Assembly: GCF_018709685.1 (NCBI RefSeq)
Contig: NZ_JABDHQ010000005.1
Coordinates: 1 to 64,000 of the forward strand
Origin: Akkermansia muciniphila
Lineage (GTDB): Bacteria; Verrucomicrobiota; Verrucomicrobiia; Verrucomicrobiales; Akkermansiaceae
Length of the DNA stretch: 64,000 bases
Reading direction: 5' to 3'
Position 1 is the stretch's first letter. Each line of letters opens with the position of its first letter. The notes beneath the pieces were generated by a model. The model saw nothing but the letters and a program-made list of their open reading frames with translations, ran no database searches and was not told the origin of the DNA. Of the stretch, positions 47,063-63,706 are shown one piece after another. Position numbers and translations under genes: made by a program.

Positions 47063-47483
47063 ACCGGGCCTTGCGCGGGGGCCCGGCACGCTTTTCCTGC
47101 GCCGCCGCGCCCGTAAATAACCGGGACCGCGTTTGATGAGACCGGACTTGTTTTCCCCGGTTGAAACGGCTTGCAGAGGAAGAAAAGGTCCCGGCTGGGA
47201 GCCGGAGCGCGGTTGAACTCCCGTGTTTGCGGATGTTCTCCGGTACAGCGGGCGGGATGAATGGAAAGTGTGAATTTTTTGAGGGATAAACGGAAGGGAT
47301 GGTTTATTTTTTGCGCCTGAAATATTTGATGATGAATTGTTTGAAATGATTTTGAAATTATTTTCAAGATTTTTCTTTCCTTAGAGTAAGTGTAACCATT
47401 TAGATGATAGGTAATGCGCTGCTTTCCGTTTCCGTCCGGATGTTCCGGGGGCCGGAAAGCAGCCGTCAAACGAACCTGTCATC
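47063..47483. other. Intergenic region with MerR-type promoter
   Basis: About 420 bases with no convincing gene. The AT-rich right half contains a TTGAAA-N4-TTTCAA palindrome (about 47352-47367) and, at 47381, the MerR-type dyad that probably controls the Fe-alcohol dehydrogenase operon. Confidence 0.45.
47375..47405 (+). promoter_or_regulatory. MerR-type promoter of the Fe-ADH operon
   Basis: The dyad TTAGAGTAAGTGTAA (47381-47395) sits between CTTTCC (47375-47380) and TTAGAT (47400-47405). The 19-base spacing is the long spacer of MerR-activated promoters. Confidence 0.55.
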
Positions 47484-48671
47484 ATGCCAGACCATACCAA
47501 TTCCACATTCATCGTGCATGTGCCCACCCGGCTTCTTTTCGGGGCCGGGCAACTGGAAAACCTGCACCGGGAGACCATGCCGGGCCGCAAGGCCATGATT
47601 GTTATTTCCAACGGGAAGTCCACGCGGGCCAACGGTTATCTGGACCGCCTCACCGGACAGCTTGAGAAGACCGGCGTTGAATACGCCGTTTTTGACCGGG
47701 TGGAGCCCAATCCCCTGAAGTCCACCGTGAACGCCGGTGGCCGGTTTGCCCGCGAACACGGCTGTGATTTCATCATCGCCCTGGGCGGCGGAAGCTGCAT
47801 GGATGCCGCCAAGTCCATGGCGCTCATGGCGGTGAACAGCGGCGATTACTGGGATTACATCCCGTCCGGTACCAGGAAGGGGCGTCCCGTTGCCAACAGG
47901 CCTCTTCCGCTCGTCGCCATTACCACCACCGCCGGAACCGGATCGGAAGCGGATGCGGGCACCGTGGTCACGAATGAGGAAGCGCATGAAAAAACGGGGT
48001 TTGTCCATCCGGACCTGTTTCCGGCGCTTTCCATCGTGGACCCCGGACTGATGCTTACCGTTCCTCCCCTTTTTACGGCCTTTCAGGGATTTGACGCCCT
48101 GTTCCACAGCGTGGAGGGCTACGTTTCCAATGGCACGAACCTGATGAGTGACATGTACGCCCTGACGGCCATGGAGCATATCAGCCGTTACCTGCCCAGG
48201 GCGGTGGCTGACGGGTCCGACCTGGAGGCCCGTACGCATGTGGCCTTCGGCAATACCCTGTCCGGTTACGTGATGTGCGTGGGCCGCTGCACCAGCGAGC
48301 ATTCCCTGGAGCATGCCTTGTCCGCCTACCATCAGGTGCTGCCCCACGGAGCAGGCCTCATCATGATCAGCAAGGCGTATTTCACGCACCTGATTGAACG
48401 GCATGTGGCGGATGAACGCTTTGTCCGCATGGCGCAGGCCATGGGGATGCCGGACGCCGCGGCCCCCATGGATTTCTTCACTATGCTGGACAGGCTGCAA
48501 ACGGCCTGCGGAGTCAGCGGCCTGTGCATGAGCGACTACGGCATCACGCCGGAAGAGTTCGGGAAGATGGCGGCCAACGCCAGGGAAACCATGGGGTTCC
48601 TGTTCCAGTGCGACCGCGTGGAACTGTCCCTGGAGGATTGCGTTTCCATTTACCGGGAGTCCTATCGTTAA
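47484..48671 (+). CDS. Iron-containing alcohol dehydrogenase
   Basis: NAD(P)H-dependent reductase of aldehydes (YqhD/BdhA type). The 395 residues have the nucleotide-binding GGGS motif (ALGGGSCMDAAKS, about 99-111) and TTTAGTGSE. Metal ligands are D204 and H208 (FDALFHSVE) plus the His cluster at 273-288 (EHSLEHAL...VLPHG). The family's length is matched. It is followed after 18 bases by a FMN-reductase gene with which it is probably cotranscribed. Its MerR-type promoter suggests induction by aldehydes. Confidence 0.93.
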   Translation: MPDHTNSTFIVHVPTRLLFGAGQLENLHRETMPGRKAMIVISNGKSTRANGYLDRLTGQLEKTGVEYAVFDRVEPNPLKSTVNAGGRFAREHGCDFIIALGGGSCMDAAKSMALMAVNSGDYWDYIPSGTRKGRPVANRPLPLVAITTTAGTGSEADAGTVVTNEEAHEKTGFVHPDLFPALSIVDPGLMLTVPPLFTAFQGFDALFHSVEGYVSNGTNLMSDMYALTAMEHISRYLPRAVADGSDLEARTHVAFGNTLSGYVMCVGRCTSEHSLEHALSAYHQVLPHGAGLIMISKAYFTHLIERHVADERFVRMAQAMGMPDAAAPMDFFTMLDRLQTACGVSGLCMSDYGITPEEFGKMAANARETMGFLFQCDRVELSLEDCVSIYRESYR

Positions 48672-48689
48672 ATCCGGGAGGCTTTTACC

Positions 48690-49226
48690 ATGAGCAAAAA
48701 GATTCTGATTATTTCCTCAAGCCCGCGCAAGGGCGGCAATTCCGACCTTCTGTGTGATGAGTTCTTGAAGGGCGCCCGGGGCGCAGGCCATGAAGTGGAG
48801 AAGGTGCGCCTGGCGGAGAAGCGCATCGGCTATTGCCGCGGCTGCGGCGTGTGCCATGACGCCCACGCCTGCCTCCAGAAGGACGATATGGCGGAACTGC
48901 TGGACAAACTGGTGGCGGCGGACGTCATCGTACTGGCCACCCCCGTGTATTTTTACACGCTGTGCGGCCAGATGAAGACGTTCATCGACCGCACGGTGCC
49001 CCGCTACCAAGAGATGCGGGACAAGGAGTTTTACTTCATTCTGGCCGCGGCGGAGGATAACCGGGCCGGCATGGAGCGCACCGTGGAGTGCTTCCGCGGT
49101 TTTCTGGACTGCCTGGAAGGGGCGGTGGAGAAGGGCGTGGTTTACGGCGCCGGAGCCTGGAAGATGGGGGACATCAAGGGCAATCCGGCCATGAAGCAGG
49201 CCAGAATCATGGGGATAGGAGTTTAG
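48690..49226 (+). CDS. NADPH-dependent FMN reductase / flavodoxin-fold oxidoreductase
   Basis: 178 residues of flavodoxin fold. The FMN phosphate-binding loop is ISSSPRKGGNSDLL (about 8-21) and the second FMN segment is ATPVYFYTLCGQMKTFIDR (about 84-102). Two Cys pairs, CRGCGVC and later C, sit on the face near the active site. Similar proteins reduce iron, quinones or azo and nitro compounds. A GGGAGG ribosome site is 9 bases before ATG. Confidence 0.88.
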   Translation: MSKKILIISSSPRKGGNSDLLCDEFLKGARGAGHEVEKVRLAEKRIGYCRGCGVCHDAHACLQKDDMAELLDKLVAADVIVLATPVYFYTLCGQMKTFIDRTVPRYQEMRDKEFYFILAAAEDNRAGMERTVECFRGFLDCLEGAVEKGVVYGAGAWKMGDIKGNPAMKQARIMGIGV

Positions 49227-49438
49227 GGAACGCCTCTCATGAAGGAATCCGGAATACAGGGAAGAGATGAATAAAGATTTTTGCGCACAGTGAGGATAGG
49301 TGAGCGCTTCCCGCGGCGTCCGGGTTTCCGGATACGGGATGAGGATGCCGCGGGAAGACAGCCTCCCGTTCTCTTTTTTCCACGGGGAGGCCCGGCCCCG
49401 TTTCCATGCCGGGCAGCCAGTTCCATTAAACACAGGCC

Positions 49439-49888
49439 ATGAAAAGAATATTACTGTATTTGCATGCCGCAGGGGCTTTGCTTGCCCCCTGCTGCTCCGC
49501 GGAGCCGGAGGCTCCGTCACCATCTCCAAGCACCATGAATATTACGATTAAAGCAGGGGAACGGGAAGTTGCCGCCACTCTCCAGGATAGCGACGCCGCC
49601 AGGGATTTCATGTCCCTGCTGCCTCTGACGCTGGTTCTGGAAGATTACGGGGATACCGAGAAGATCAGCCCCTTGCCCGGAAAACTGTCCGCCGCCGGGG
49701 CGCCGTCCGTGGGGAAACCCTTCCGGGGGGCCATCGCCTACTACGCCCCATGGGGCAATTTATGCATTTTCAGGAAGGATTTCAGACCGTCCGGCGGCCT
49801 GGTCATTCTGGGGAGCCTGGACGGGGATGGCCTGAAGGCCCTGGATGTTCCCGGAAAGCTCCGCGTGACCATTGACGTGAAACGCTGA
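49439..49888 (+). CDS. Secreted cyclophilin-like fold protein
   Basis: A 149-residue exported protein with a short signal peptide (MKRILLYLHAAGALLAPCCSA; the Cys pair also fits a lipobox). The mature part (MNITIKAGEREVAATLQDSDAARDFMSLLPLTL... DYGDTEKISPLP... YAPWGNLCIF) is the cyclophilin-like fold found beside flavodoxins and aldo/keto reductases in Bacteroides and Proteobacteria. It is not a true PPIase. It lies 212 bases after the FMN reductase. Confidence 0.82.
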   Translation: MKRILLYLHAAGALLAPCCSAEPEAPSPSPSTMNITIKAGEREVAATLQDSDAARDFMSLLPLTLVLEDYGDTEKISPLPGKLSAAGAPSVGKPFRGAIAYYAPWGNLCIFRKDFRPSGGLVILGSLDGDGLKALDVPGKLRVTIDVKR

Positions 49889-50101
49889 TTCCGGGGCTTT
49901 TCCGGGTTGCGCCGGAACCGGATTCATTCCTTGCTGTTGGAACCGGGAGAAAACCGTTTTCCGGTTGCAGGGGGGGCCTGGCGCCTCATTGTTGGAGAAG
50001 ACGGTGGTAATGACATGAAACAATTATTTATAAGAAGATGAAATTAATACGTTTATTGAATCAGGGCGCCGATGCGTCCTGCGGCTGGAAAGGAGGGAAG
50101 A

Positions 50102-51379
50102 ATGCCTCCCGCTGAACAATTGAACCCCGTCAGTCCGCGGGAGCGTTCCGTGGTTCTGGATGCCCTGCGGGGGCTGGCGCTTCTGGGCATCTGCCTTGCC
50201 AATTTCCCGGAGTTTTCCCTGTACACGTTCCAGAGTCAGGAAGTTGTTTCCGCCATGCCCACGGCCGGAATCGACCGCGTGGTCCGGTTTCTTCAGTATG
50301 TTTTCATTGACGGCAAGTTTTATAGTTTGTTTTCCCTGCTGTTCGGCATCGGTTTTTCCATCATCATGGCTCATTCCATGGAGAAGGGGAGGAACGGCCT
50401 GGCCGTTTTTTACCGCAGAATGGGCCTTCTGGCCCTGATCGGGCTGCTGCACCTGATGCTTCTGTGGAGCGGGGATATCCTGCTCCTGTACGCGCTGACC
50501 GGCATGCTGCTGCCGCTGTTCCGGAACGTGCCGGACAGGAAGCTGCTTGCCGCTGCTGCCGTGCTCGTTTTCTGTCCCGTCCTGATGGACATTCTGAAGA
50601 TACTGCCGGGCCTCCGGCTGGACCTGGCCGCCTCCGTGGAGGGCGCGGTCCAGTATTTCAACGGGCACAGCGGGATTACGGAGGACAATTTCAGCAGGTG
50701 GCTGGTGGATGGGGAGCATTATTCCGACGTGCTGAAGTTCACGCTGTCCGGGGCATTCATCCGCGTTCAGGAACTGCTGGAAAGCAACCGGGTGTTCAAG
50801 GTTCTGGCCCTGTTCCTGCTGGGCCTGTATGTGGGGAGAAAGGGCATTTACGCGAATTTGAAGATCCACCGGGAGCTTTTGAAGAAGGTGTGCCGTTACG
50901 GTTTTCTGGCGGGGCTTCCCCTGTCCTTCCTTTATGCCGCCCATGCGCTTCATCTGCTGGGCGGGGGGCCCGTGGCGGGCGCCTGCCTGTATGCCCTCAG
51001 CGTCATTCCGCTGAGCCTGGCGTATGCGTCCGTTTTCTGCCTGTGGTTCCTGCGCCGGCAGCAGGCTCCCCTGTTCCGCGCCCTGGCAGCTCCCGGGAGG
51101 ATGGCGCTGACCAACTACATCGGCCAGTCCGTCCTGGGCATGGTCCTGTTTTACGGCATAGGCTTCCGCCTGGGCGCGCGGATGGGGCTGGCGCAGGTGG
51201 AATTGACTGCCGCCGCCGTTTTCCTGTTCCAGGTTTTGTTCAGCCATGCGTGGCTGAAATTCTGCCTGTTCGGCCCCTTGGAATGGGGGTGGCGCATGCT
51301 CACTTACGGAAAACGGCTTCCGTTGTTCCGGAAGCCTCCGCTTCTCCGCGGAGGGAAGGCGGCTCCTTTTCACAAATAA
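50102..51379 (+). CDS. DUF418 family membrane protein
   Basis: The 425 residues show a DUF418 pattern: RSVVLDALRGLALLGICLANF at the start, the segment LFGIGFSIIMAHS, and a C-terminal end with ALTNYIGQSVLGMVLFY. About ten helices. The start is fixed by AAGGAGG at good spacing before ATG 50102; an upstream ATG (50072) has no ribosome site. DUF418 proteins are sometimes called membrane transporters or acyltransferase-like, but no function has been established. Confidence 0.85.
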   Translation: MPPAEQLNPVSPRERSVVLDALRGLALLGICLANFPEFSLYTFQSQEVVSAMPTAGIDRVVRFLQYVFIDGKFYSLFSLLFGIGFSIIMAHSMEKGRNGLAVFYRRMGLLALIGLLHLMLLWSGDILLLYALTGMLLPLFRNVPDRKLLAAAAVLVFCPVLMDILKILPGLRLDLAASVEGAVQYFNGHSGITEDNFSRWLVDGEHYSDVLKFTLSGAFIRVQELLESNRVFKVLALFLLGLYVGRKGIYANLKIHRELLKKVCRYGFLAGLPLSFLYAAHALHLLGGGPVAGACLYALSVIPLSLAYASVFCLWFLRRQQAPLFRALAAPGRMALTNYIGQSVLGMVLFYGIGFRLGARMGLAQVELTAAAVFLFQVLFSHAWLKFCLFGPLEWGWRMLTYGKRLPLFRKPPLLRGGKAAPFHK

Positions 51380-51398
51380 ATGCCCGGGAGATTTTCCA

Positions 51399-52409: not shown

Positions 52410-52512
52410 ATGTTTTCACGAGTCCGTTTTTTATGAAATGAGTTTTATGACAGTTAATATCCATTGAATATAAATACATTAAAAATGATGAACCAGAAAA
52501 TGCTAAAAATGC

Positions 52513-52543
52513 TTTGCATTACAGTTACTATAATGAATAGCCT
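52513..52543 (+). promoter_or_regulatory. MerR-type promoter of the DUF3737 operon
   Basis: TTTGCA (52513-52518), dyad TTACAGTTACTATAA (52519-52533), and TAGCCT (52538-52543), again with 19 bases between hexamers. A TATAAT also lies within the dyad's right half. The ribosome site AGAGGAAGG follows shortly after. Confidence 0.55.
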
Positions 52544-52563
52544 GAAGGAAGAAAGAGGAAGGC

Positions 52564-53556
52564 ATGATTGGCGGCCAGCGCCGTTCCCATTTCTTTCCGC
52601 TCCCTCCCTTTGCCGGGAGTCCGTCACCGCCGCGTAAACGGCACGCCATGAATATCAGAAGAACATTTTACCAAACCATGACCATGACCAAGAGAATGAT
52701 TAAAAACACTTCCTACGAAGGGGAACGCCCCTTGTTTGCCTCCCATCATTTGAGACTGGAGGACGTCACGATTTATCCCGGAGAGTCCGCCCTAAAGGAG
52801 TGTTCCGACATTGAAGCCGTGCGGTGCGAGTTCCGGGGCAAGTACCCCTTCTGGCACAATGACGGCCTCCTGATCCAGGATTGCCTGTTCCGGGAAGGCG
52901 CCCGCGCCGCCATCTGGTATTCCCGGAACCTGCGCATGCAGGATACGCGGGTGGAGGCGCCCAAGATGTTCCGTGACATGGACGGAATGGTGCTGGAGAA
53001 CGTGGTCCTGACTGATGCCCTGGAGTGCTGCTGGCACTGCCGGAATGTGGAGCTCCGCAACGTGCAGGCGGACAAAGGCGATTACCTGTTCATGCACGGG
53101 GAGAATATAGACATTGACGGCTTCCGCCTGAACGGGAATTACTCCTTCCAGTATTGCAGGAACGTAGTGATCCGCCATGCGGAGATCCATTCCAAGGACG
53201 CCTTCTGGAATACGGAGGACGTGACGGTGTATGATTCCGTGGTGGACGGTGAGTATCTGGGCTGGCATTCCAAGAACCTCCGCCTGGTGAATTGCCGTAT
53301 TTCCGGCACGCAGGCGCTGTGCTACGCGGAGAACCTGGTGCTGGAGAACTGCACGTTCGGGGAGGATGCGGACCTTTGCTTTGAGTACTCCTCCGTCCGG
53401 GCGGAGATCAAGGGGCGCGTCCACAGCGTCAAGAATCCGCGCAGCGGCCGCATCGTGGCGGACAGTTACGGAGAGATCATTCTGGACGGGAACTGCAAGG
53501 CCCCGGCGGACTGCTCCGTTGAAACGGCGAAAACCCAGTCGGGAGAAGCGGCATGA
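52564..53556 (+). CDS. DUF3737 family beta-helix protein
   Basis: The 330 residues form a DUF3737 right-handed beta-helix with many NVxLxNC-like rungs (RNLRMQDTRV, RNVELRNVQ, ENLVLENCTF). The ATG at 52564 directly follows a strong ribosome site (AGAGGAAGG); the family core starts only at MIKNTSYEGERPLF, so the first 48 residues may be an extension. A start at 52648 is the alternative. It is coupled (ATGA) to the PatB gene. DUF3737 proteins often neighbour PatB/MalY-type enzymes and aldo/keto reductases; their substrate is unknown. Confidence 0.85.
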   Translation: MIGGQRRSHFFPLPPFAGSPSPPRKRHAMNIRRTFYQTMTMTKRMIKNTSYEGERPLFASHHLRLEDVTIYPGESALKECSDIEAVRCEFRGKYPFWHNDGLLIQDCLFREGARAAIWYSRNLRMQDTRVEAPKMFRDMDGMVLENVVLTDALECCWHCRNVELRNVQADKGDYLFMHGENIDIDGFRLNGNYSFQYCRNVVIRHAEIHSKDAFWNTEDVTVYDSVVDGEYLGWHSKNLRLVNCRISGTQALCYAENLVLENCTFGEDADLCFEYSSVRAEIKGRVHSVKNPRSGRIVADSYGEIILDGNCKAPADCSVETAKTQSGEAA

Positions 53557-54728
53557 AGTACGATTTTGACACAGTGGTTCCGCGCCGCGGCACGAATTCC
53601 TACAAGTGGGATTCCATGCCCGCGGGGGACATCCTCCCCATGTGGGTGGCGGACATGGATTTCCGCACGGCCCCGGCCGTGACGGAGGCCATCCGGAAGA
53701 GGGCGGAACACGGCATCTTCGGCTATACGCGGGTGCCGGATTCCTATTATGAGGCGGTGGTGAACTGGTTTGCGCGCCGCCACGGCTGGAAGATCAGGCC
53801 GGAGTGGATGATTTACACCACGGGGGTGGTTCCCGCCCTGTCCGCGATCATCCGGGCGCTGGCCTCTCCGGGGGACAAGGTGCTGGTGCAGACGCCGGTG
53901 TACAACTGCTTTTTCTCCTCCATCCGCAACAACGGCTGCGTGGTGGAGGAGAATCCGCTGAAGTATGAGGACGGGAAGTACACCCTTGATGTGGAGGACC
54001 TGAAACGGAAAGCGGCTGATCCCGCCGTCAAGCTCCTGCTCCTGTGCAATCCCCACAATCCCGCCGGGCGCGTGTGGACGAGGCTGGAGCTGGAGAAGAT
54101 CGCGGAGATCTGCCGGAGAAACGGCGTGCTGGTGGTGGCGGATGAGATTCATTGCGAGCTGGCGTATCCCGGCCATCCCTACACGCCCTTCGCCTCCCTG
54201 TCGGAGGAAGCCCTGCGCCATTCCGTCACCTGCATTTCCCCCAGCAAGGCCTTCAATCTGGCGGGCATCCAGATCGCCAACATCGTCGCGGCGGATGAGG
54301 AAATACGGCAGAAGATAGACAAGGCAATCAACATTAACGAGGTGTGCGACGTGAACTCCTTCACCGTGGACGCGCTGGAGGCAGCCTACAACAACGGGGA
54401 GGAATGGCTGGAGGAGCTGAAGCTCTACCTTTACCGGAATTATGAAACGGTCCGGGACGTGCTGGGCGGCCGCCTGCCACAGCTCCGCGTGCTGCCGCTG
54501 GAAGGCACGTACCTGGTCTGGATGGACTGTTCCGCGCTGGGGCTTCCCGAGGCGGAAATCGTCCGCCTGCTGGAGGAAGAAGGCCGCGTGATGGTGAACG
54601 GCGGGGAAATGTACGGGGAGACGCAGGGCTGCTTCATCCGCCTGAACATCGCCTGTCCCCGGAAATTGCTGCTTGAAGGGCTGGACAGAATCTGCCGGAC
54701 CCTGGATGGCCGCGTTTCCGGAACATGA
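53553..54728 (+). CDS. patB: PatB/MalY-type aminotransferase, probable cystathionine beta-lyase
   Basis: PLP enzyme of fold type I that cleaves C-S bonds of cystathionine or S-conjugates. The 391 residues have the family start DFDTVVPRRGTNSYKWD, the substrate-site motif PMWVADMDF, and the PLP Lys in SPSKAFNLAG (K232). The start overlaps the DUF3737 stop. It probably processes thiol conjugates or sulphur compounds in the same detoxification system. MalY-like regulation cannot be excluded. Confidence 0.93.
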   Translation: MKYDFDTVVPRRGTNSYKWDSMPAGDILPMWVADMDFRTAPAVTEAIRKRAEHGIFGYTRVPDSYYEAVVNWFARRHGWKIRPEWMIYTTGVVPALSAIIRALASPGDKVLVQTPVYNCFFSSIRNNGCVVEENPLKYEDGKYTLDVEDLKRKAADPAVKLLLLCNPHNPAGRVWTRLELEKIAEICRRNGVLVVADEIHCELAYPGHPYTPFASLSEEALRHSVTCISPSKAFNLAGIQIANIVAADEEIRQKIDKAININEVCDVNSFTVDALEAAYNNGEEWLEELKLYLYRNYETVRDVLGGRLPQLRVLPLEGTYLVWMDCSALGLPEAEIVRLLEEEGRVMVNGGEMYGETQGCFIRLNIACPRKLLLEGLDRICRTLDGRVSGT

Positions 54729-54796
54729 ACGAGCCCGGCATTCCCGGGCGGCCTCGCAGGAAAATAACAAACAATCAAGTTACCATGGGAAACAAC

Positions 54797-55792
54797 ATGA
54801 CAAGAAGAGCGTGGCTCCAGTCTTCCACAGCGGCCCTGGCGTCTCTGGCCTTGCCGGAATACGCGCTGGGGGCGGCAGCAGAAAGGAACGGGGCGTCCGG
54901 GGTATGGATGACGAAGGAGATTTCTCCGGAAGCGCTCGTAAGGATTTATGAGGCGCTGGGGCTCCCCGCTTCCGGCAGGGTGGCCGTCAAGATCAGCACC
55001 GGGGAGCCCGGAGGCCATAACTTCCTGAGCCCGGACCTGATCAGGGACCTGGTGCGCCGCGTGAACGGCACCATCGTAGAGTGCAATACGGCTTACGGCG
55101 GCAAGCGCTCCCGGACGGAGGACCATCTCAAGGCCGCGAAGGACCACGGCTTTTCCGACATTGCCAGGGTGGACATCATGGATGCGGAGGGAGAGTTCAC
55201 CATTCCGGTGAAAGACAGGAAGCACCTGGAATACGACATCGTGGGAAGCCATTTGAAGAATTATGATTTCATGATTAACCTGGCCCACTTCAAGGGGCAT
55301 GCCATGGGGGGCTTCGGCGGGGTGATCAAGAACCAGTCCATCGGCGTGGCGTCCGCAAGCGGCAAGGCGTACATCCATTCCGCAGGAAAAACGCGGGACG
55401 TTTCCGCCGTGTGGAACAATCTGGCCACGCAGGACGATTTCCTGGAATCCATGGCCGCCTCCGCGCAGGCCGTGGCGGACTATTTCCGGGACAGGATTCT
55501 TTACATCAACGTGATGAACAGGCTGTCCATTGACTGTGATTGCGACGCCCACCCCCATGACCCGGAAATGAAGGACATCGGTATTCTGGCCTCCACAGAC
55601 CCGGTCGCGCTGGACCAGGCGTGCCTGGACCTCGTTTATGCCGTCAAGCCTTCTCCGGGAGATAACAGCAGGCCGCTGATCGAGCGCATTGAAAGCCTCC
55701 ATGGGAGGCATACGGTGGATTACGCCGAGAAGATCGGCCTGGGGAGCAGAAACTATGAACTGAAGGAACTTCCGCCGCCGAGGGGCGTTTGA
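54797..55792 (+). CDS. DUF362 domain protein with Tat-type signal
   Basis: 331 residues from MTRRAWLQSSTAALASLA, a twin-arginine signal (TRRAWLQ) ending near ALGA. The rest matches DUF362 (VAVKISTGEPGGHNFLSPDL, GTIVECNTAYGGKRSRTEDHLKAAKDHGF, MINLAHFKGHAMGGFGGVIKNQSIG), a domain often fused to ferredoxins. No Fe-S Cys motif is obvious here except DCDCDAHPHD. ATG at 54785 is a second possible start. Export by Tat suggests that it carries a cofactor. It lies in the operon after PatB. Confidence 0.87.
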   Translation: MTRRAWLQSSTAALASLALPEYALGAAAERNGASGVWMTKEISPEALVRIYEALGLPASGRVAVKISTGEPGGHNFLSPDLIRDLVRRVNGTIVECNTAYGGKRSRTEDHLKAAKDHGFSDIARVDIMDAEGEFTIPVKDRKHLEYDIVGSHLKNYDFMINLAHFKGHAMGGFGGVIKNQSIGVASASGKAYIHSAGKTRDVSAVWNNLATQDDFLESMAASAQAVADYFRDRILYINVMNRLSIDCDCDAHPHDPEMKDIGILASTDPVALDQACLDLVYAVKPSPGDNSRPLIERIESLHGRHTVDYAEKIGLGSRNYELKELPPPRGV

Positions 55793-55836: not shown

Positions 55837-56685
55837 ATGGAAGAAGTAACATTGAATAACGGAGTGGTCATGCCCATCCTGGGCTTTGGCGTTTTTCAGA
55901 TTCCGGACGCCGCGGAGTGCGAACGCTGCGTGCTGGACGCGATCAGTGTGGGCTACCGCTCCATTGACACGGCGCAGATTTACGGCAATGAAGAGGCCGT
56001 GGGCCGCGCGGCGGAGAAGAGCGGGGTGCCGCGCGAAGAATTGTTCCTCACCACCAAGGTGTGGATCACCAACGGCGGGTATGAAAAGGCGAAAGCCTCC
56101 ATTGACGAATCCCTGCGCAAGCTGCGCACGGATTACCTGGACCTGCTGCTCATCCACCAGCCTTTCAACGATTATTATGGCACCTACCGGGCCATGGAGG
56201 AGGCGAACCGGGCCGGGAAGGTCCGCGCCATCGGCGTGAGCAATTTTTATCCGGACCGCTTTGTGGACCTGGCGGAGTTCTGTGAAATCAAGCCCGCCGT
56301 CAACCAGGTGGAAACGCACGTGTTCAACCAGCAGGTGAAGGCCCGGGAGCTGATGGCAAAGTACGGCACGCGGGTGGAATCCTGGGGCCCCTTCGCGGAA
56401 GGCCGCAACGGGTTTTTCACGAACCCGGTCTTGAAAGACATCGGAGAGAAGTACGGCAAGACCCCGGCGCAGACGGCCCTGCGCTTCCTGATCCAGCGCG
56501 GGATCATCGTCATTCCCAAGACGACCCACCGGGAGAGGATGGAAGAGAATTTCAATGTCTTTGACTTTGAACTTACCCAGGAAGACATGGGCGCCATCGC
56601 CAGGCTGGACCGCGGGGAAAGCCTTTTCCTGTGCCATCAGGACCCGGAATCCGTCCTGTACCTGATCAATTACGGGAAGCAGTAA
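55837..56685 (+). CDS. Aldo/keto reductase (AKR5/2,5-diketogluconate reductase type)
   Basis: 282 residues of the aldo/keto reductase barrel. Catalytic tetrad D44, Y49 ([16 protein letters not shown]), K74 (LTTKVWI) and H107 (LLIHQPF). The cofactor region ([15 protein letters not shown]) is typical of NADPH enzymes. It follows the DUF362 gene by 44 bases. In such clusters the enzyme reduces reactive aldehydes such as methylglyoxal, fitting the alcohol dehydrogenase and other reductases nearby. Confidence 0.95.
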
Positions 56686-56706
56686 TTCACATGAAGTACC
56701 GGGAAG

Positions 56707-57786
56707 ATGACAGGACATTCATTTAAAAGGCTTTGCGTAGCTTTCTCCGCCTGCTTCTGCTGCGCGGGCGGCTTATCTGCCGAGAGTAATAACGCTAACA
56801 CTGACAGGATCATGAACGAAAAACTGAATTTAACGCAGGAATGGGACAAGGTGTTCCCGGAAAGCGGCAAGGTGGACCACCGTAAGGTGAGCTTCCGCAA
56901 CCGCTACGGCATTACGCTGGCGGCGGATTTGTACGTGCCCCGGAAGGCTGCCGGGAAGTTGCCGGCTATCGCCGTTTCCGGCCCCTTCGGAGCCGTGAAG
57001 GAACAATCTTCCGGACTTTATGCCCAGACGATGGCCGAGCGGGGTTTTCTGGCGATTGCGTTTGATCCCTCGTATACGGGAGAGAGCGGGGGAGAACCCC
57101 GTTACGTCGCCTCCCCGGACATCAACACGGAGGATTTCTCTGCAGCCGTCGATTACCTCTCCACCCGCGACGACGTGGACCCCGAACGCATCGGAATCAT
57201 CGGCATTTGCGGCTGGGGCGGCATGGCCTTGAACGCGGCGGCTATCGACACCCGCATCAAGGCGGCGGTAACTTCCACGATGTATGATATGAGCCGCGTG
57301 AACGCGAACGGCTATTTTGACGCGATGGATGCCGGCGCCCGTTATGAACTGCGCCAACGGCTGAATGCCCAGCGCACCGCCGATGCCAAAAACGGTTCCT
57401 ATGCGCTCGCCGGGGGCGTGCCCGATGCTCTGCCCGCGGATGCCCCCGCGTTCATGAAGGATTACTACAATTACTATAAGACGGAGCGCGGCTACCACAA
57501 GCGTTCGCTCAACTCAAACGGCGGATGGAATGTCACCTCCGCGCTCTCCTTCATGAATATGCCCCTGCTGGCGTACAGCGGGGAAATCCGCAGCGCCGTG
57601 CTCATGATTCACGGAGAAAAAGCCCACTCGCGCTATTTCAGCGAGGATGCCTTCAAGAAGCTGAAGGGGGATAACAAGGAGCTGATGATCATTCCCGGCG
57701 CAAGCCATGTGGATCTCTATGACAATCAGGCCGGGGTTATTCCTTTCAACAAAATAGAGCAGTTCTTTCAGGAGCATTTGAAATAG
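56707..57786 (+). CDS. Secreted alpha/beta hydrolase with Cys nucleophile
   Basis: The 359 residues start with a signal peptide (MTGHSFKRLCVAFSACFCCAGGLSA). The nucleophile elbow is GICGWGG, Cys in the place of Ser, as in dienelactone-hydrolase-like enzymes. The His is in GASHVDLYD and an acidic residue lies in IHGEKAHS. The helical cap (NANGYFDAMDAGARYELRQRL) matches the YafP/YcjY-like family seen beside aldo/keto reductases. It is the last gene in the operon of DUF3737, PatB, DUF362 and AKR. Confidence 0.88.
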   Translation: MTGHSFKRLCVAFSACFCCAGGLSAESNNANTDRIMNEKLNLTQEWDKVFPESGKVDHRKVSFRNRYGITLAADLYVPRKAAGKLPAIAVSGPFGAVKEQSSGLYAQTMAERGFLAIAFDPSYTGESGGEPRYVASPDINTEDFSAAVDYLSTRDDVDPERIGIIGICGWGGMALNAAAIDTRIKAAVTSTMYDMSRVNANGYFDAMDAGARYELRQRLNAQRTADAKNGSYALAGGVPDALPADAPAFMKDYYNYYKTERGYHKRSLNSNGGWNVTSALSFMNMPLLAYSGEIRSAVLMIHGEKAHSRYFSEDAFKKLKGDNKELMIIPGASHVDLYDNQAGVIPFNKIEQFFQEHLK

Positions 57787-57927: not shown

Positions 57928-59070
57928 ATGATACTGATTTTCGGAGCGTTGCTTGCGGTTTACGTTTTCTGCCGCGCCATCCTGCCGCTGAGGCTGAAAT
58001 GGGGCTGGAAGGTCCTGCTTGCCGTCCTTCTGGCGGTGGCGTCATTCAAATTCCACCTGCTGCATTTGTTTGGCGGCCCCATGTTTTTCTCCCCGGTTCT
58101 GCCGGAAGGAGTCCTGCTGGCGGCCGCGTGGCTGTTCTCCGTTCTTTTCCTGTTCTTTTTCCTGCTGCTGGCGGCGGACGTGGTGCGTCTGCTGTACCTG
58201 CTGGTTCTGTTCTGCCTGCGGAGGAAGAGGACGGAACAATTCCGCATCATTGGCAACCGGGTGAACCTTGTGCTGCTGGTTATGGCCGCCGCGCTGGCTA
58301 CGGTGGGGATGGTCGGCGGTACCGCGGTGCCGCGGGTGAGGGAGGAGGCGATTGCCGTGAATCATTTGCCGGAGGGTGCGGACGGCCTGACCGTCGCCGT
58401 GCTGGCGGACCTGCACGTGGACGGCATCACGCGGGCGGACCGCATCCGGAAGATCGTGGAGCGCACGAACGCCCTGAATCCGGACATCGTCATTATCGCC
58501 GGGGACTTTGTGGACGGGACGGTTCCCGTGCATGGGGATGATTTGAGGCCGCTTGCGGATTTGAAGGCCAGGTACGGGGTGTTCGGCGTGCCGGGCAATC
58601 ATGAGTATTATTCCGGTTATGAGGAGTGGATGGAGTTCCTGCCCACCCTGGGCATCCGGATGCTTTCCAACGGGCATGTGCTGACGGGAGAGGGAGGCGC
58701 AGTGGTGCTGGCCGGGGTGACGGACCCGGTGGCGGCCATTATGGGGAGGGAGGAGCCGGACATCCGCAAGGCGCTGGCGGGGGCTCCGGAAAAGGGAGTG
58801 CGCATCCTCGCCTCCCATCAGCCGCGGCTGGCCCCGGAAGCGGCGGAACACGGCGTGGACCTTCAGGTTTCCGGCCATACGCACGGCGGCATGATTGCCG
58901 GAATTGACCGGCTGGTGGCCCGGTTTAACGAGGGCTTCGTTTCCGGGCTGTATACGGTGGGGGATATGAAGCTGTACGTCTCCAACGGAGCCGGAATCTG
59001 GAACGGCTTTCCCATCCGCATCGGAGTTCCTTCGGAAATTATTCTTCTTCGACTAAGTAAGAAATGGTGA
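57928..59070 (+). CDS. Membrane metallophosphoesterase (YkuE/YaeI-like)
   Basis: The 380 residues begin with three or four membrane helices (to about 130), followed by a calcineurin-like phosphoesterase with all metal-binding motifs: VLADLHVDG, IIAGDFVDG, VPGNHEYYSGY, SHQPRLAPE and VSGHTHGGM. The segment continues to SNGAGIWNGFPIRIG, typical of this subgroup (UDP-2,3-diacylglucosamine pyrophosphohydrolase-like or YaeI). It probably acts on a lipid or nucleotide at the membrane. It is 142 bases after the hydrolase gene. Confidence 0.9.
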   Translation: MILIFGALLAVYVFCRAILPLRLKWGWKVLLAVLLAVASFKFHLLHLFGGPMFFSPVLPEGVLLAAAWLFSVLFLFFFLLLAADVVRLLYLLVLFCLRRKRTEQFRIIGNRVNLVLLVMAAALATVGMVGGTAVPRVREEAIAVNHLPEGADGLTVAVLADLHVDGITRADRIRKIVERTNALNPDIVIIAGDFVDGTVPVHGDDLRPLADLKARYGVFGVPGNHEYYSGYEEWMEFLPTLGIRMLSNGHVLTGEGGAVVLAGVTDPVAAIMGREEPDIRKALAGAPEKGVRILASHQPRLAPEAAEHGVDLQVSGHTHGGMIAGIDRLVARFNEGFVSGLYTVGDMKLYVSNGAGIWNGFPIRIGVPSEIILLRLSKKW

Positions 59071-59089
59071 GGTGTGTTGTTTCTATATA

Positions 59090-60826
59090 TCACTCTGTTG
59101 GACACTGAGTCGTTGAATTTGTTGTATTTGTAGGAGAAGTAATAATTTTTTTTAATGTATCATCGCCAATAAATTCGGTTAATTTAATTAGTTCCCCTTC
59201 TTTGACATGATACTCTTGGTGTAAAATTGACTTTATAGAACCTATCATAATGTGACCATTCAGACAGCACTGTTGATTGGCATTAAAATAATTAATAGCT
59301 TCTATTGACTCTGTTCCTCGTCCACCTGCTCTCATTGAATCTAATCTTCGATTCAAATATTTTTCTAATGATTGATGGTGGGCATATTCCGTGGCCCTAT
59401 CAACTATATTTTGGACCTTATCTAAATCAATAGGTATGCCTTGATCAGCGAGGATTTTTTGTATATGCTTCGAAGAGCAAAAATACATTTCCAAATCATT
59501 ATACTTAGTGACAAAGCAATGCAATTTTTTTTCTTGTTCTATTTTGTTTATAAAATCAGTTACCTCATCTATGGTCATACCGTCACGATCTCTATGAATA
59601 ATTATTTTTAAATCTTCTCTAAAATGTTTCAAACATTTTGATACATAAATAGCTGAATCAATTTTAGAACATCCTTCATATGGTAATATTACAAATGATT
59701 TGGTGTCAAATCCAGAACATTGCAATATAAGACTAAGCAGTTTGTGACTATTAGGACAAGCATCCTCAGTTGCAATGACATATTTAATATTTGGATCACG
59801 ATATACATCATATTCATCTAATGCACCAATTTCCATTAAAATATCATATTCAGAATAATTATGAGGTTGTGATGTTCCGTTCTTTAACAGTGTTACTTGA
59901 GCATTTTTCCTTAGTGCTCCCACCAGATGTCTGGAATGAGTGGAAATAATAATGTTTCTATTTTTTTGAGCTAATTGTAATATCATTTGAGCTAACATTT
60001 TCTGATTATTCGGATGCAAATGAGAATCTGGTTCATCCAATAATAATAATTGTGGTTCAAAATAATTCATATATGCGCATATTTGTATAGCTTGTAACAC
60101 GCCAGTTCCTGTCGCATCAATAGGTTTTGTGTATTTTGAATTATTGACCAGTACTTCGATCATACCATCATTCTCTAAGCGCGGATTAATTTCAATACTG
60201 ATGTCGGGAAATATGGAATTAAGGTCATTAAGAAAGTTTTTATATTTTTCAGTGTCTGTACTTAAGTTATATAAAACATTTCTAAGGACAGTATTGCAGT
60301 CACCTCTTGCTGCAGCTCTGCGTACAGCTCCAATAGAACGGTATTCTTCATAAAACGGTATCCCAGCTAATCCTGGAACATACATACTAAAAACTGGATT
60401 TAGATTAGCCATTTTTTGACATAATTCTTTGCCAGAATACGACACTACAATATTTTTATTACGTCCTTTTTTTATGATTATTTGTCCTTTGTTAATATTA
60501 TTTCCATTTTTTTCTTCTAATTCAATAGACATATCACACCCAGACCCCTCACGTAATGGCTCATTACCATGAAGTAGGGCATACACATTACTTATGGGAG
60601 AATAAATAATTCTTTCTGGAGAAAGCGATTTAGATTTTGGATTGTCATCATATTGCATTGAAGATTCTAATGCCATTGTTTGTAAAAGAGAAGCTGCAAA
60701 TTGTAATGCTTGTAGAGCACTGCTTTTTCCTGCGTTATTCCCTCCTATTAATACATCTACTCCATGCAAGATTAGCTCAAAACTTTCAATACTTTTAAAT
60801 CTTTCAATTTTAATTCTCGTTATCAT
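59090..60826 (-). CDS. OLD-family ATPase-TOPRIM nuclease, solitary, AT-rich
   Basis: The 578 residues have an ABC/RecF-like ATPase at the N terminus: Walker A GGNNAGKS (28-35), Walker B LLLLDEPDSHLHP, and the H-loop STHSRH. A TOPRIM nuclease follows, with the Glu in VIATEDACPN and the DxD in IHRDRDGMT. This is the OLD (overcoming lysogenization defect) layout, shared by GajA of Gabija and other phage-defence nucleases. No partner gene (UvrD-like helicase, retron or AriB) lies beside it. Its base composition is far more AT-rich than the neighbours, suggesting recent transfer into a spot between two native genes. Confidence 0.88.
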   Translation of the reverse strand: MITRIKIERFKSIESFELILHGVDVLIGGNNAGKSSALQALQFAASLLQTMALESSMQYDDNPKSKSLSPERIIYSPISNVYALLHGNEPLREGSGCDMSIELEEKNGNNINKGQIIIKKGRNKNIVVSYSGKELCQKMANLNPVFSMYVPGLAGIPFYEEYRSIGAVRRAAARGDCNTVLRNVLYNLSTDTEKYKNFLNDLNSIFPDISIEINPRLENDGMIEVLVNNSKYTKPIDATGTGVLQAIQICAYMNYFEPQLLLLDEPDSHLHPNNQKMLAQMILQLAQKNRNIIISTHSRHLVGALRKNAQVTLLKNGTSQPHNYSEYDILMEIGALDEYDVYRDPNIKYVIATEDACPNSHKLLSLILQCSGFDTKSFVILPYEGCSKIDSAIYVSKCLKHFREDLKIIIHRDRDGMTIDEVTDFINKIEQEKKLHCFVTKYNDLEMYFCSSKHIQKILADQGIPIDLDKVQNIVDRATEYAHHQSLEKYLNRRLDSMRAGGRGTESIEAINYFNANQQCCLNGHIMIGSIKSILHQEYHVKEGELIKLTEFIGDDTLKKIITSPTNTTNSTTQCPTE

Positions 60827-60976
60827 AGTATTTATTAATATTTATATTTATATATTTAGTAGTATTTTTTTATGTATCAAAAAATTAAAAATAATAATAA
60901 ATGAGTATAATAAAATATCAAGTGGAATAAAGGTTAGTGCCAAATTTTCATTAATAATATATAAATGAAAAACATG

Positions 60977-61006
60977 TTGACTTATAGTTGCTCTAACGTT
61001 TAGACA
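60977..61006 (+). promoter_or_regulatory. MerR-type promoter of the flavodoxin-CMD operon
   Basis: TTGACT (60977-60982), dyad TTATAGTTGCTCTAA (60982-60996), then TAGACA (61001-61006), spacer 18. This is the best-formed promoter of the set and lies about 100 bases before the flavodoxin gene. Confidence 0.6.
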
Positions 61007-61104
61007 GGGATAAGGAACAAGGTTCATGCACGGGGACTGCGGGATGAAGACGTTTTCATCCCAGGCTGTTTTCTGCGTGGCCTTCCAACCCAGACATTAA
61101 ATTT

Positions 61105-61683
61105 ATGAAAACAATATCAATGATATGCACGCTGGCGGCCGTCCTGATGACGGGGGCCGGATGCTCGGGACAGGAACAGCCGAAGGTTTCCGCGGAGCCT
61201 GCCAAAGTTCTTGTGGCCTACTATTCATGGGGCGGCAATACGAAGTACGCCGCCGCGCAGATTCAGAAGGCGACGGGCGGGACCCTGTTTGAGATCAAGC
61301 CGGCCAGGCCCTATCCCGCCGAGTACCGGGAATGCACCGTGCAGGCCAAGAAGGAGATTCAGGAAGGCTTCAGGCCGGAACTCGCCTCCAAGGTGGAGGA
61401 CATCGGCAAGTATGATGTGATTTTCATCGGCAGTCCCAACTGGTGGAGCACGATTGCGCCGCCGGTCGCCGCTTTCCTGGCAAGTTATGATCTTTCCGGA
61501 AAAACGGTGATTCCGTTTGTGACGCACGGAGGCGGCGGCATGGCGCGCTGTGGGGAAGAGGTGCGGAAGTTGTGCCCCAAGTCCACCGTTCTCAAGGGCG
61601 GAGCCTTTGCCGGAGAGGGCATCCGGACGTCCAGGGCCGCCCTGGTCAAATGGGTCAATGACACGATCACCATCAACAAATAA
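61105..61683 (+). CDS. Flavodoxin-like lipoprotein
   Basis: The 192 residues have a lipoprotein signal (lipobox TGAGC, Cys at 20) and a flavodoxin fold with the FMN loop in YYSWGGNTKYAAAQI and later SPNWWSTIAPPVAAFL. Exported flavodoxins in gut anaerobes often lie beside MerR, aldo/keto reductase and cupin genes, as here. It is coupled to the next gene by TAATG. Confidence 0.92.
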   Translation: MKTISMICTLAAVLMTGAGCSGQEQPKVSAEPAKVLVAYYSWGGNTKYAAAQIQKATGGTLFEIKPARPYPAEYRECTVQAKKEIQEGFRPELASKVEDIGKYDVIFIGSPNWWSTIAPPVAAFLASYDLSGKTVIPFVTHGGGGMARCGEEVRKLCPKSTVLKGGAFAGEGIRTSRAALVKWVNDTITINK

Positions 61684-62738
61684 TGCTCCTGATGAAACGA
61701 ACCCTTGCGGGAATGGCTTTTTCCCTCGCCTGCCTGATGAACCTTTCAGAAGCCAAAACCATGAATAACGATACAAGCGCCTTGTCGCCAAAAGAACAGC
61801 AGATTGCCGCCATCAGCGCCCATACGGCCCGGGGTGACATGCCCGGCCTCCGCAATGCCCTGGCCGCGGGGCTGGACGCCGGACTGACCCTGAACGAGCT
61901 CAAGGAGGTGCTGGTGCAGATGTACGCCTACTGCGGCTTCCCCCGCAGCCTGAATGCCCTCAATGAGTTGATGGTTCTGGCGAAGGAGCGGGCCGCGCGC
62001 GGCATTAATGATACGGCGGGTGCCGAAGCGGGAGCTCCGCCCGCCGGAAAGAGCATTGACTTTGGCACGGCCAATCAGACGAAGCTTTGCGGCGCTCCGG
62101 TGAAGGGGGACCTTTTCCTGTTCGCCCCGGCCATTGACGAGTTCCTGAAGGCGCATTTGTTCGGGGACATTTTCGGCCGCGACAACATGGACTGGAAGAC
62201 CCGGGAGCTCGCCACCATTGCGGCCCTGGCGGCCATGGAAGGCACGGAAAGCCAGTTGAATTCCCACATCCGTATCGGCAGGCACAATGGCTTGACTGAC
62301 GAGCAGGTGAAGGCCATTCTGGCCGTGTCTTCCGCCTCCGCAAAGAAGGACGCCTTCCCCACGGGGGAGCCGGCCCCGGCCAATTTTACCGGGAACGCCT
62401 GGGTAGCCATGCTGGTGGACAATAAGGATTACGACCTGTCCGCCTATAACGTCACCTTTGCCCCCGGCACGCGGAACAACTGGCACAGCCATTCCGTGGG
62501 GCAGGTGCTCCTCTGCACGGAAGGCGCGGGATATTACCAGGAGCGCGGCAAGGCCGCCCGGCGTCTGGCGCCCGGTTCCGTGGTGGAGATTCCGGCTGAC
62601 ACGGAGCACTGGCACGGCGCGGCTCCGGACAGCGGATTCGTCCACCTCGGCATCACGCCCAGGGCCGCTTCCAACAAGACAACGTGGGGAGGTCCCGTGA
62701 CTGACGCGGAGTATGCGGAGGCGACGGGAAGCAGATAA
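61683..62738 (+). CDS. Carboxymuconolactone decarboxylase-like/cupin fusion, secreted
   Basis: The 351 residues start with a signal peptide (MLLMKRTLAGMAFSLACLMNLSEA; ATG 61692 is also possible). Two CMD-type helical domains follow (LVQMYAYCGFPRSLNALNELM and ELATIAALAAMEGTESQLNSHIRIG), then a cupin (NNWHSHSVGQVLLCTEGAGYY... EHWHGAAPD) with metal-binding His. The CMD motif lacks the usual CxxxH pair in the second domain, so peroxidase function is uncertain. YdfG/AhpD-like enzymes and cupins of this type are found in aldehyde-stress operons, including the AdhR regulon of B. subtilis. Confidence 0.9.
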   Translation: MLLMKRTLAGMAFSLACLMNLSEAKTMNNDTSALSPKEQQIAAISAHTARGDMPGLRNALAAGLDAGLTLNELKEVLVQMYAYCGFPRSLNALNELMVLAKERAARGINDTAGAEAGAPPAGKSIDFGTANQTKLCGAPVKGDLFLFAPAIDEFLKAHLFGDIFGRDNMDWKTRELATIAALAAMEGTESQLNSHIRIGRHNGLTDEQVKAILAVSSASAKKDAFPTGEPAPANFTGNAWVAMLVDNKDYDLSAYNVTFAPGTRNNWHSHSVGQVLLCTEGAGYYQERGKAARRLAPGSVVEIPADTEHWHGAAPDSGFVHLGITPRAASNKTTWGGPVTDAEYAEATGSR

Positions 62739-62817
62739 AAACGCCGGGACAGCCCTGCGTTCCGTTCTTTCCCGGGGAGACGGAAAGGAGCGGGTTCTCC
62801 CTGAGCGGGAATACGGA

Positions 62818-62858
62818 AGGGCCGGGAATTCCAGCGGAATTCCCGGCCCTGCTTTTTA
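62818..62858. terminator. Bidirectional terminator between convergent CMD and merR genes
   Basis: A perfect 15-bp stem (AGGGCCGGGAATTCC with its complement) with a 3-base loop AGC. Downstream is GCTTTTTACG. It separates the rightward operon from the leftward regulator gene. Confidence 0.85.
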
Positions 62859-62877
62859 CGTTTTTTGAGGGAGCGGC

Positions 62878-63363
62878 CTATTCCTCCGGAGCAATGTTCG
62901 GTTCGCTCGCGCTGGCGTGGTTCAGCGGGTTGCAGCTGTCCGGCCTGTGGTTGTCCAGCAGGTCCTGGTAGAATTTCTTCTTGTATTTCAGGACCTCCAT
63001 CTGTTTTTTCAGGATGCGGAGCTGTTCCCGGAGGCTTTTCTCCTGCTTGAAAATCAGTTCCGCGCGTTCCGGAATGGTGGTGTCCCCCTCCTGGCACAGG
63101 TCAATGTAGTGCTTGACGCCTTCAATCGGGAGGCCCGTCATCCGGAGGCAGTGAACCAAGCGCAGCCAGCCCAGGGTGTAGTCTGAAAACATGCGGGCAT
63201 TCCCTCCGCTGCGGTCCACATCTGGAATCAGCCCGGCGTTTTCATAATACCGGATGGTGTAGGCGGACATCTCCATCATTTCCGCAACCTGTTTCACGGT
63301 ATATTTGGGGGTACGGTCATAGGAGGGCCGGTAGGCGCTGGATGGATTCTTTTGAGTGATCAT
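62878..63363 (-). CDS. MerR family transcriptional regulator
   Basis: 161 residues with the MerR winged helix-turn-helix (KYTVKQVAEMMEMSAYTIRYYENAGLIP, about 20-47), second wing GGNARMFSDYTLGWLRLVHCLRMTG, and a C-terminal dimerisation coiled coil (KSLREQLRILKKQMEVL). The length and the short C terminus fit the AdhR/NmlR/TipAN-like group that senses electrophiles. I see only Cys residues outside the helix-turn-helix (LVHCLRMTG, YIDLCQEG, DSCNPL). Its operator at 63379 recurs in front of three other operons in the window. Confidence 0.93.
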   Translation of the reverse strand: MITQKNPSSAYRPSYDRTPKYTVKQVAEMMEMSAYTIRYYENAGLIPDVDRSGGNARMFSDYTLGWLRLVHCLRMTGLPIEGVKHYIDLCQEGDTTIPERAELIFKQEKSLREQLRILKKQMEVLKYKKKFYQDLLDNHRPDSCNPLNHASASEPNIAPEE

Positions 63364-63706
63364 CGTGCGGTTGATAGCTTACAGTTACTCTAATATACTT
63401 ACTGGCGCGTAAAGACAAGCGTTTTGACGGGATTCAGGCTGGGAAGGCGCTGAAAACGCGTGGAAATCCATTAGTGAATAACATATTGATAACATGTGAA
63501 TAAACGAGAAGGGCTTTTTCAATCCCTGTTCCGGTGGAGAACGAGGCAAAGAACGCCGCAGTTTCTCGCGCCGGAAAAACGCGCCGCTTTTCATGCGCTC
63601 CCCCGCGGACCGCGCGGAAAAGGCGCAGGAACGGCGGAAAGGCCAAAGGGTTTGACGGCTGGCGGCGGCGCATTACAATGAAGGCCGTTCCAGAAAAGAA
63701 CCCGCC
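63364..63706. other. Intergenic region between merR and YhcH-like gene
   Basis: About 340 bases with no convincing gene apart from the promoter and operator described. The right half is GC-rich and I see no further signal. Confidence 0.4.
63379..63393. promoter_or_regulatory. MerR operator at merR and possible rightward promoter
   Basis: The dyad TTACAGTTACTCTAA lies 15 bases upstream of merR. On the plus strand TTGATA (63371-63376), 17 bases, and TATACT (63394-63399) form a good promoter that contains the dyad in its spacer. This would transcribe rightward, toward 63707, while MerR may also repress its own leftward gene. Confidence 0.55.

Follow-up and report, generated by a model that had tools for sequence, protein, structure and literature searches.

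A candidate NmlR/AdhR-type MerR regulon in Akkermansia muciniphila with 18-bp promoter spacers

A stretch of 64,000 nucleotides of Akkermansia muciniphila (contig NZ_JABDHQ010000005.1, positions 1 to 64,000, in the following "the window") encodes a MerR-family regulator and carries four copies of a 15-bp dyad, one in front of the regulator gene itself and three in front of redox and detoxification genes. Taken together, the dyads, their promoter geometry, their conservation, their co-occurrence with the regulator and the cysteine of the latter, all read from the sequences, strongly support a local MerR regulon of the NmlR/AdhR type. We consider it probable that this NmlR/AdhR-like protein binds the dyad, switches on detoxification operons from promoters with a spacer of 18 bp and represses its own gene. 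In the following, clade A denotes the regulator clade of the window and clade B the regulators of sister genomes, while labels beginning with G and L stand for genomes and loci, respectively. The regulator, the three best supported promoters and the genes behind them are:

62878-63363, minus strand: merR, NmlR-like MerR-family regulator of 161 amino acids (Pfam MerR_1, 5e-16; NCBIfam NmlR, 1.6e-25)
63379-63393, minus strand: merR dyad, TTAGAGTAACTGTAA in minus-strand reading, overlapping the merR -10 box (motif search)
63390-63395, minus strand: proposed merR -10 box, TATTAG, overlapped by the dyad (from the sequence)
63413-63418, minus strand: merR -35 box, TTGTCT, 17 bp before TATTAG
60977-60982, plus strand: flavodoxin promoter, -35 box TTGACT (TTGAC here in 13/13 tabulated clade A flavodoxin sites)
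60982-60996, plus strand: dyad of the promoter of flavodoxin and the carboxymuconolactone decarboxylase (CMD)/cupin gene, TTATAGTTGCTCTAA (motif search)
61001-61006, plus strand: flavodoxin promoter, -10 box TAGACA, spacer 18 bp
61105-61683, plus strand: flavodoxin (Pfam Flavodoxin_4, 4.6e-33)
61683-62738, plus strand: CMD/cupin fusion protein (Pfam CMD, 4e-25; Cupin_2, 1e-8)
52514-52519, plus strand: DUF3737 operon, -35 box TTGCAT
52519-52533, plus strand: dyad of the DUF3737 operon promoter, TTACAGTTACTATAA (motif search)
52538-52543, plus strand: DUF3737 operon, -10 box TAGCCT, spacer 18 bp
52564-53556, plus strand: DUF3737 protein (Pfam, 2.4e-126)
53553-54728, plus strand: PatB family C-S lyase, its start overlapping the DUF3737 stop (TIGR04350, 2.6e-135, above cut-off)
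54725-55792, plus strand: DUF362 protein (Pfam, 3.5e-49)
55837-56685, plus strand: aldo/keto reductase (AKR; Pfam, 1.3e-52; DkgA model, 2.6e-74, below cut-off)
56707-57786, plus strand: alpha/beta hydrolase (Peptidase_S15, 5.7e-13; DLH, 8.5e-8)
57928-59070, plus strand: metallophosphoesterase, possibly the last operon gene (Pfam, 6.5e-18)

The four dyads

A motif search of the window found the dyads at 63379, 47381, 52519 and 60982, exactly where the preliminary description had placed them, and they share one 15-bp motif, TTAnAGT-N-ACTnTAA, whose two half-sites flank a single base. With up to three mismatches, TTACAGTTACTCTAA has eight matches in the window against a mean of 0.18 in shuffled sequence, and none of 100 shuffles reached eight; two of these eight are the same sites read in reverse, and those at 44030 and 57465 lie outside the regulon, the latter inside the hydrolase gene. 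Genome-wide (2.86 Mb), exact copies of the palindrome TTANAGTNACTNTAA are confined to the window, and the exact pattern TTANAGTNNCTNTAA stands at three places, all of them in the window, while the reversed control pattern gave 0 and 1. At one mismatch, however, the genome holds five places for the motif and ten for the reversed control, and at two mismatches the motif has 9 and 8 matches against 35 and 29 of the control. The bare number of matches at one or two mismatches is thus uninformative, and the case has to be made from the exact matches, their clustering, their conservation and their promoter register. A chance origin of the four dyads, which could be argued from the shortness of the motif and from the commoner control at both mismatch levels in this genome, stands against all four of these and is scarcely credible; it is already refuted for 52519, 60982 and 63379, and only for 47381 is it not.

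Beyond the four sites, the genome contains one weaker match at one mismatch (C10:27992) and seven at two mismatches. When we checked these eight on both strands for further regulon members in this genome, TTG stood at the -35 place in none of them, and only C10:27992, on its minus strand, had a -10-like TAGGGT at 18 bp. The genome-wide scan that the preliminary description had proposed shows the sites at one locus only in this species; in some relatives they are dispersed and still lie at redox genes.

In a second genome of the same species (G055), a one-mismatch dyad lies 11.7 kb from merR (L025:7955), with neither TTG nor an adjacent regulon gene; in the window genome, the 20 kb beyond the window hold no match.

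Regulator and co-occurrence with the dyad

Among NCBIfam models the best for the window protein is NmlR, and among solved structures it matches best the HI_0186 chains of Haemophilus influenzae NmlR (PDB search, E ~1e-23), with which phmmer aligns residues 20-134 without gaps over the winged helix and coiled coil. In this alignment Cys72 falls on Cys54 of the H. influenzae protein, and it is kept in 15/15 aligned proteins of clade A and 9/9 of clade B. The conserved cysteine of NmlR and AdhR (Cys54 in H. influenzae NmlR, Cys52 in AdhR) is required for their response to formaldehyde (excerpt of PMC4776306). By this homology, an aldehyde or another electrophile may be the signal. The SoxR equivalog model gave 24.1 bits, below its cut-off of 116.9, and 34-43 bits for clade B proteins. 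Relatives of the regulator with 93-97% identity occur in records of Akkermansia muciniphila or Akkermansia sp.

Across 40 genomes of the genus, the exact dyad is present in five of the six with a close orthologue of the regulator (E <1e-60) and in none of the 34 without (Fisher 9e-6). Nine genomes were compared by stretches around the loci, eight of them with a regulator at least 87% identical, one of these from the same species. In these eight the dyad precedes merR throughout (once with one mismatch) and flavodoxin in seven, and it stands before DUF3737 in all six genomes that retain this gene in the stretch examined. Genes that have moved elsewhere keep their dyad, namely DUF3737 in G028 and G130, DUF362 in G130 and the hydrolase in G139; in G139 a dyad is also found at the gene of a 4Fe-4S protein with a weak flavodoxin domain (below cut-off). 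The earlier proposal of a local MerR regulon, here of NmlR/AdhR type, is strongly supported by the NmlR cysteine, the joint occurrence of orthologue and exact dyad, and the dyads that accompany relocated genes.

The adjacent MerR protein is very probably the cognate regulator of the dyads. The genome encodes two MerR_1 proteins above cut-off, the window protein included, so that one further candidate exists, and binding to the dyads is here predicted from sequence. Yet the dyads co-occur with the MerR orthologue, merR itself has one, and the half-site TTAGAGT is found also beside nmlR of Neisseria, which makes it very unlikely that the dyads belong to another regulator and lie near merR by coincidence.

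One genome, G148, has two DUF3737 genes (C34 and C79), and an exact dyad was seen adjoining the C34 copy only.

Promoter geometry

For the analysis of promoter geometry, sites were gathered by dyad and neighbouring gene, and clade A sites with two mismatches were admitted only beside a homologue other than MerR. Left out were L094_G148 (at a contig end, with no upstream flank), the secondary overlapping matches L088:3476 and L099:3621, and the cut flavodoxin site of G047. Counted from the dyad, TTG occupies positions -5 to -3 in 23 of the 28 structural sites of clade A and in seven of the eight sites of clade B; together with the 11 of 39 unassigned sites that have this TTG these make up a set of 41 sites, the other 28 unassigned sites being left out for lack of TTG. 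Within this set TA follows the -35 hexamer at exactly 18 bp in 39/41 sites, the exceptions being L178_G131 and L183_G100, neither of which lies beside a regulon gene. The fuller TAnnnT is present at 18 bp in 27 sites (20 of the 26 sites that are less than 75% alike) and at none of the other spacers between 13 and 22, where bare TA occurs once at 14, four times at 16, seven times at 20 and never at 19. In the layout of the structural promoters TTGAC abuts the dyad, the -35 box ending in its first base, and four bases separate the dyad from the -10 box.

The same geometry extends beyond the genus. In 288 genomes of the phylum a pattern that allowed a centre of one to three bases, TTGACTTNNAGTN{1,3}ACTNNAA, gave 24 matches against 12 for the reversed control; 23 of the 24 have a one-base centre, and all of these 23 have TA at 18 bp, 17 of them as TAnnnT. 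Of the 24, 11 were already known and 13 were new (12 with a one-base centre), some being near-copies of each other or of known sites. Orthologues with 63-76% identity and nearby dyads occur in Victivallis vadensis DSM 14823, in two metagenome-assembled genomes of Lentisphaeria and on one contig binned as Alphaproteobacteria. There, sites that combine the dyad with TTG and an 18-bp TA lie before flavodoxin (in one case followed by CMD/cupin) and a metallophosphoesterase, the homologue of the possible last operon gene having its own dyad in V. vadensis; further sites of this build lie at a zinc-type alcohol dehydrogenase, a 4Fe-4S aldo/keto reductase and a polyferredoxin.

The contig binned as Alphaproteobacteria (L114, CALXYE010000101.1) carries the regulator (66% identity) together with homologues of FMN reductase, DUF362, CMD/cupin and DUF3737, and reflects either a transfer between phyla or a binning error.

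MerR promoters are described as having spacers of 19-20 bp (excerpts of PMC5045206 and PMC9909328). The sites of clades A and B share with them the dyad at a fixed place in the spacer and depart from them in spacer length. The hallmark of MerR-activated promoters that the preliminary description had seen at three structural promoters, with boxes 18-19 bp apart, is thus found as geometry at the flavodoxin and DUF3737 promoters (60982 and 52519, both exactly 18 bp) and not at 47381, and at those two promoters it comes with an 18-bp spacer and a one-base centre in place of the standard 19-20 bp.

Outside these groups we inspected 14 loci; of 30 listed matches, among 59 matching records, 12 were retrieved. 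An AGT-ACT dyad lies near merR in six of the 14, always with a two-base centre, and none was found near merR in the other eight. In five of these (gonococcal nmlR, Monoglobus, Selenomonas, Priestia and Clostridiaceae M8S5) a -35 box with TTG and a TAnnnT are set apart by 19 bp, and again four bases lie between dyad and -10 box; the sixth, Niallia, lacks TTG on both strands, one of which shows TATCTT at 18 bp. Given a two-base centre and 19 bp with the same flank in the outgroup, the Akkermansia-type sites lack one base pair at the centre of the dyad.

A change in the length of the regulator was considered as the cause of the short operator and rejected, since there are few indels relative to the window protein over residues 21-134: none in 14/15 proteins of clade A, 8/9 of clade B and 10/13 of the outgroup. 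The one exception in clade A, L115, is cut short by an early stop, and L224_out, of which only 8 residues were available, was excluded from tree and counts.

The promoter of merR

At merR the dyad takes another place. In 10 Akkermansia genomes, this one included, it is exact in nine and has one mismatch in one, and in 10/10 a TTG stands 25 bases before it, which gives the promoter TTGYCN-17-TATTRG with the dyad over the -10 box. The conservation of this -10 box is not independent evidence, as its last bases lie within the dyad. A dyad over a merR promoter with a 17-bp spacer probably reflects autorepression.

The Fe-ADH site and other points against the regulon

The fourth site precedes an iron-containing alcohol dehydrogenase (Fe-ADH) gene:

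47381-47395, plus strand: degenerate dyad, TTAGAGTAAGTGTAA, membership doubtful (motif search)
47484-48671, plus strand: iron-containing alcohol dehydrogenase (Pfam, 2.9e-52)
48690-49226, plus strand: NADPH-dependent FMN reductase family protein (Pfam, 8.5e-26)

Several observations weigh against the regulon as we read it, first of all at this site: its inner half-site has one mismatch, TTTCC (in a -35 box TTTCCT) replaces TTGAC, and TA is missing at 18 bp, while the orthologous Fe-ADH promoters of G047 and G107 read TTAGAGCAGGTGTAA, without an intact dyad. A Fe-ADH is also present in the related MerR cluster of Monoglobus; the site itself is doubtful and we do not count it as an established member. 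Elsewhere, two mismatches occur in three of the seven flavodoxin sites outside the window genome, a deletion has cut the flavodoxin dyad in G047, and five of the 28 clade A structural sites lack TTG. The 90 bases upstream of merR hold no dyad in G139 and G092, two genomes with diverged orthologues. Finally, the score of the window protein for NmlR, its best model, is 89.5 bits, below the equivalog cut-off of 175.

A second operator word in sister genomes

The regulator of nine sister genomes is another MerR protein, with 30-37% identity to that of the window and the same cysteine; for the three clade B proteins tested NmlR was again the best model (78-85 bits, below cut-off). These sister Akkermansia carry a different NmlR-like regulator and, at equivalent genes and in the same geometry, another operator word, CTCAAGTNACTTGAG, which presumably resembles the SoxR box. 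Within one mismatch CTYAAGTNACTTRAG is found in 9/9 sister genomes (exact in three) against 1/9 clade A genomes, where the lone match lies in a repetitive stretch; the reversed control has 14 matches against 25 of the motif in the nine sister genomes, and 33 against 1 in the nine clade A genomes. The nine sister genomes are not an independent sample for this count, as the pattern was drawn from dyads in some of them. Clade B sites precede genes for CMD/cupin (G143, G145), AKR (G100), FMN-reductase-like proteins (G131, G100), flavodoxin (G002, G100), the hydrolase (G145) and DUF3737-PatB (G143), and at these regulon genes, except in the hydrolase case, they have TTGAC, TTGCC or TTGTC with TA at 18 bp. 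None of the matches to CTYAAGTNACTTRAG in G063 and G078 lies at a regulon gene, and regulon genes are also missing beside several of those in G100.

At position 35 of the recognition helix, all 15 clade A proteins have Tyr and the nine of clade B have Pro, Ala or Ser, which makes this position a candidate specificity residue. As to a possible common origin of the two groups with short operators, A and B each form a single clade in the tree (100/99 and 100/98), while their mutual placement is weak and long branches meet there.

Activation or repression

In the mechanism that we infer, MerR would bind the TTAnAGT-N-ACTnTAA dyad of two promoters, that of flavodoxin-CMD/cupin and that of DUF3737-PatB-DUF362-AKR-hydrolase. 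An electrophile or aldehyde that reacts with Cys72 would probably change the dimer, which might then kink and untwist the centre of the dyad and bring -35 and -10 boxes into phase; from the realigned promoters the detoxification genes would be turned on, and the merR dyad that covers the -10 box would probably serve self-repression.

That activation is intended at the structural promoters is argued by the strict geometry. At the mer promoter, however, derivatives with 18 bp were strong, constitutive and insensitive to MerR, and deletion at the dyad centre prevented binding (excerpt of PMC11049809), which makes activation from an 18-bp spacer uncertain. The regulators of this branch either manage a correction of one base pair or act as repressors. 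As a plain repressor, the dimer would block the polymerase at near-optimal promoters until a modified cysteine releases it. Such a design could draw on the strength and constitutive activity of the 18-bp mer derivatives (excerpt of PMC11049809), and also on the spacers of generic promoter-like pairs, which peak at 17 bp in samples of the window genome (G000) and of V. vadensis, so that 18 bp is only one over. But a steric block would not need an exact geometry kept in 39/41 sites and across phyla, and the -10 boxes of the window are poor (TAGACA, TAGCCT); we therefore regard plain repression as rather unlikely.

A different solution would be a sigma-70 of this lineage that prefers 16-bp spacers, which would make 18 bp the usual MerR design of two base pairs too long. 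Among 150 listed matches to exact TTGACA-N-TATAAT in the genus, near-copies included, 82 have 16 bp and 32 have 17 bp. Among these listed matches, those with 16 bp come mostly from G161, G118, G121 and G171, all without a detected DUF3737; G118 and G121 have no close MerR orthologue, and G161 and G171 were not searched for one. TTG/TAnnnT pairs, moreover, peak at 17 in the G000 sample (30, with 22 at 16 and about 10 elsewhere), in V. vadensis (35, with 25 at 16) and in the loci of operator-B species (25 against 4 at 16), although the method has low power, as seen from its weak Escherichia coli control (14 at 17 bp, 12 at 16 and 14 at 20). A lineage-wide 16-bp optimum was rejected as the cause of the 18-bp spacer because the samples from regulon-bearing genomes peak at 17, and we judge this explanation decidedly unlikely.

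The 16-bp mode of perfect consensus promoters in several Akkermansia species is unlike the 17-bp peak in the samples of the window genome and V. vadensis. In G161 (C118:14645-16382), a promoter-like sequence is repeated four times identically and once slightly changed, in steps of about 415-455 bases.

Returning to activation from an 18-bp spacer, we lean slightly towards a branch of MerR proteins that activates promoters one base pair over a 17-bp optimum, its operator having lost a base pair at the centre while the protein core kept its length, and within which Akkermansia has exchanged regulator and operator word while keeping the geometry. If this is true, a spacer two base pairs too long would not be a general requirement of MerR promoters. 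According to the current model of activation the protein corrects a spacer that is two base pairs too long, and shortening to 18 bp destroys regulation at mer (excerpt of PMC11049809). A natural and widely conserved 18-bp class would test this model directly, as one base pair at one place separates it from five relatives with 19 bp. That sister species have exchanged regulator and operator word would also constitute a natural experiment in operator evolution, and Akkermansia gains a concrete and testable candidate for an electrophile-response regulon.

Neighbouring genes

Between the metallophosphoesterase and the flavodoxin promoter lies, on the minus strand (59090-60826), a gene for an OLD/GajA/AriA-like AAA ATPase. 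A stretch beyond its start is A+T-rich, and no match to the ATPase was found in the stretches taken from nine other genomes.

Comparison with known systems

In a limited literature collection no paper was found that joins NmlR and Akkermansia, none on the regulon gene set and, by that phrase, none on MerR with an 18-bp spacer; titles and abstract openings of papers on Akkermansia and MerR regulons describe no such regulon. Among the closest known systems is the NmlR regulon of Neisseria gonorrhoeae and H. influenzae: the window regulator is 37% identical to the gonococcal protein and shares the critical cysteine, and the half-site TTAGAGT stands beside the gonococcal nmlR homologue. The gonococcal site differs in its two-base centre (TTGCCT-19-TAAACT), and the known NmlR targets adhC-estD (excerpt of PMC4776306) are absent from this cluster.

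Two records of the plasmid collection, NZ_CP119142.1 and NZ_CP084075.1 (N. gonorrhoeae and Fusobacterium), exceed 2 Mb and look like chromosomes labelled as plasmids.

AdhR of Bacillus subtilis, to which the preliminary description had likened the gene content, is likewise a MerR protein, with Cys52, and its targets include an alcohol dehydrogenase and a CMD protein (excerpt of PMC4776306). AdhA is, however, a thiol-dependent formaldehyde dehydrogenase, whereas the alcohol dehydrogenase here is of the iron type and its site doubtful, and flavodoxin, PatB, DUF3737, DUF362 and AKR are additional here. With the activators MerR, CueR and SoxR the system has in common the dyad at a fixed place between -35 and -10 boxes, and it differs from them in its 18-bp spacer. 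A further close system is a cluster of Monoglobus pectinilyticus (plasmid record NZ_OY725739), in which a MerR gene lies beside Fe-ADH, flavodoxin, cupin and AKR genes, but its dyad is TTAAAGT-TA-ACTTTAA within TTGACT-19-TATAAT.

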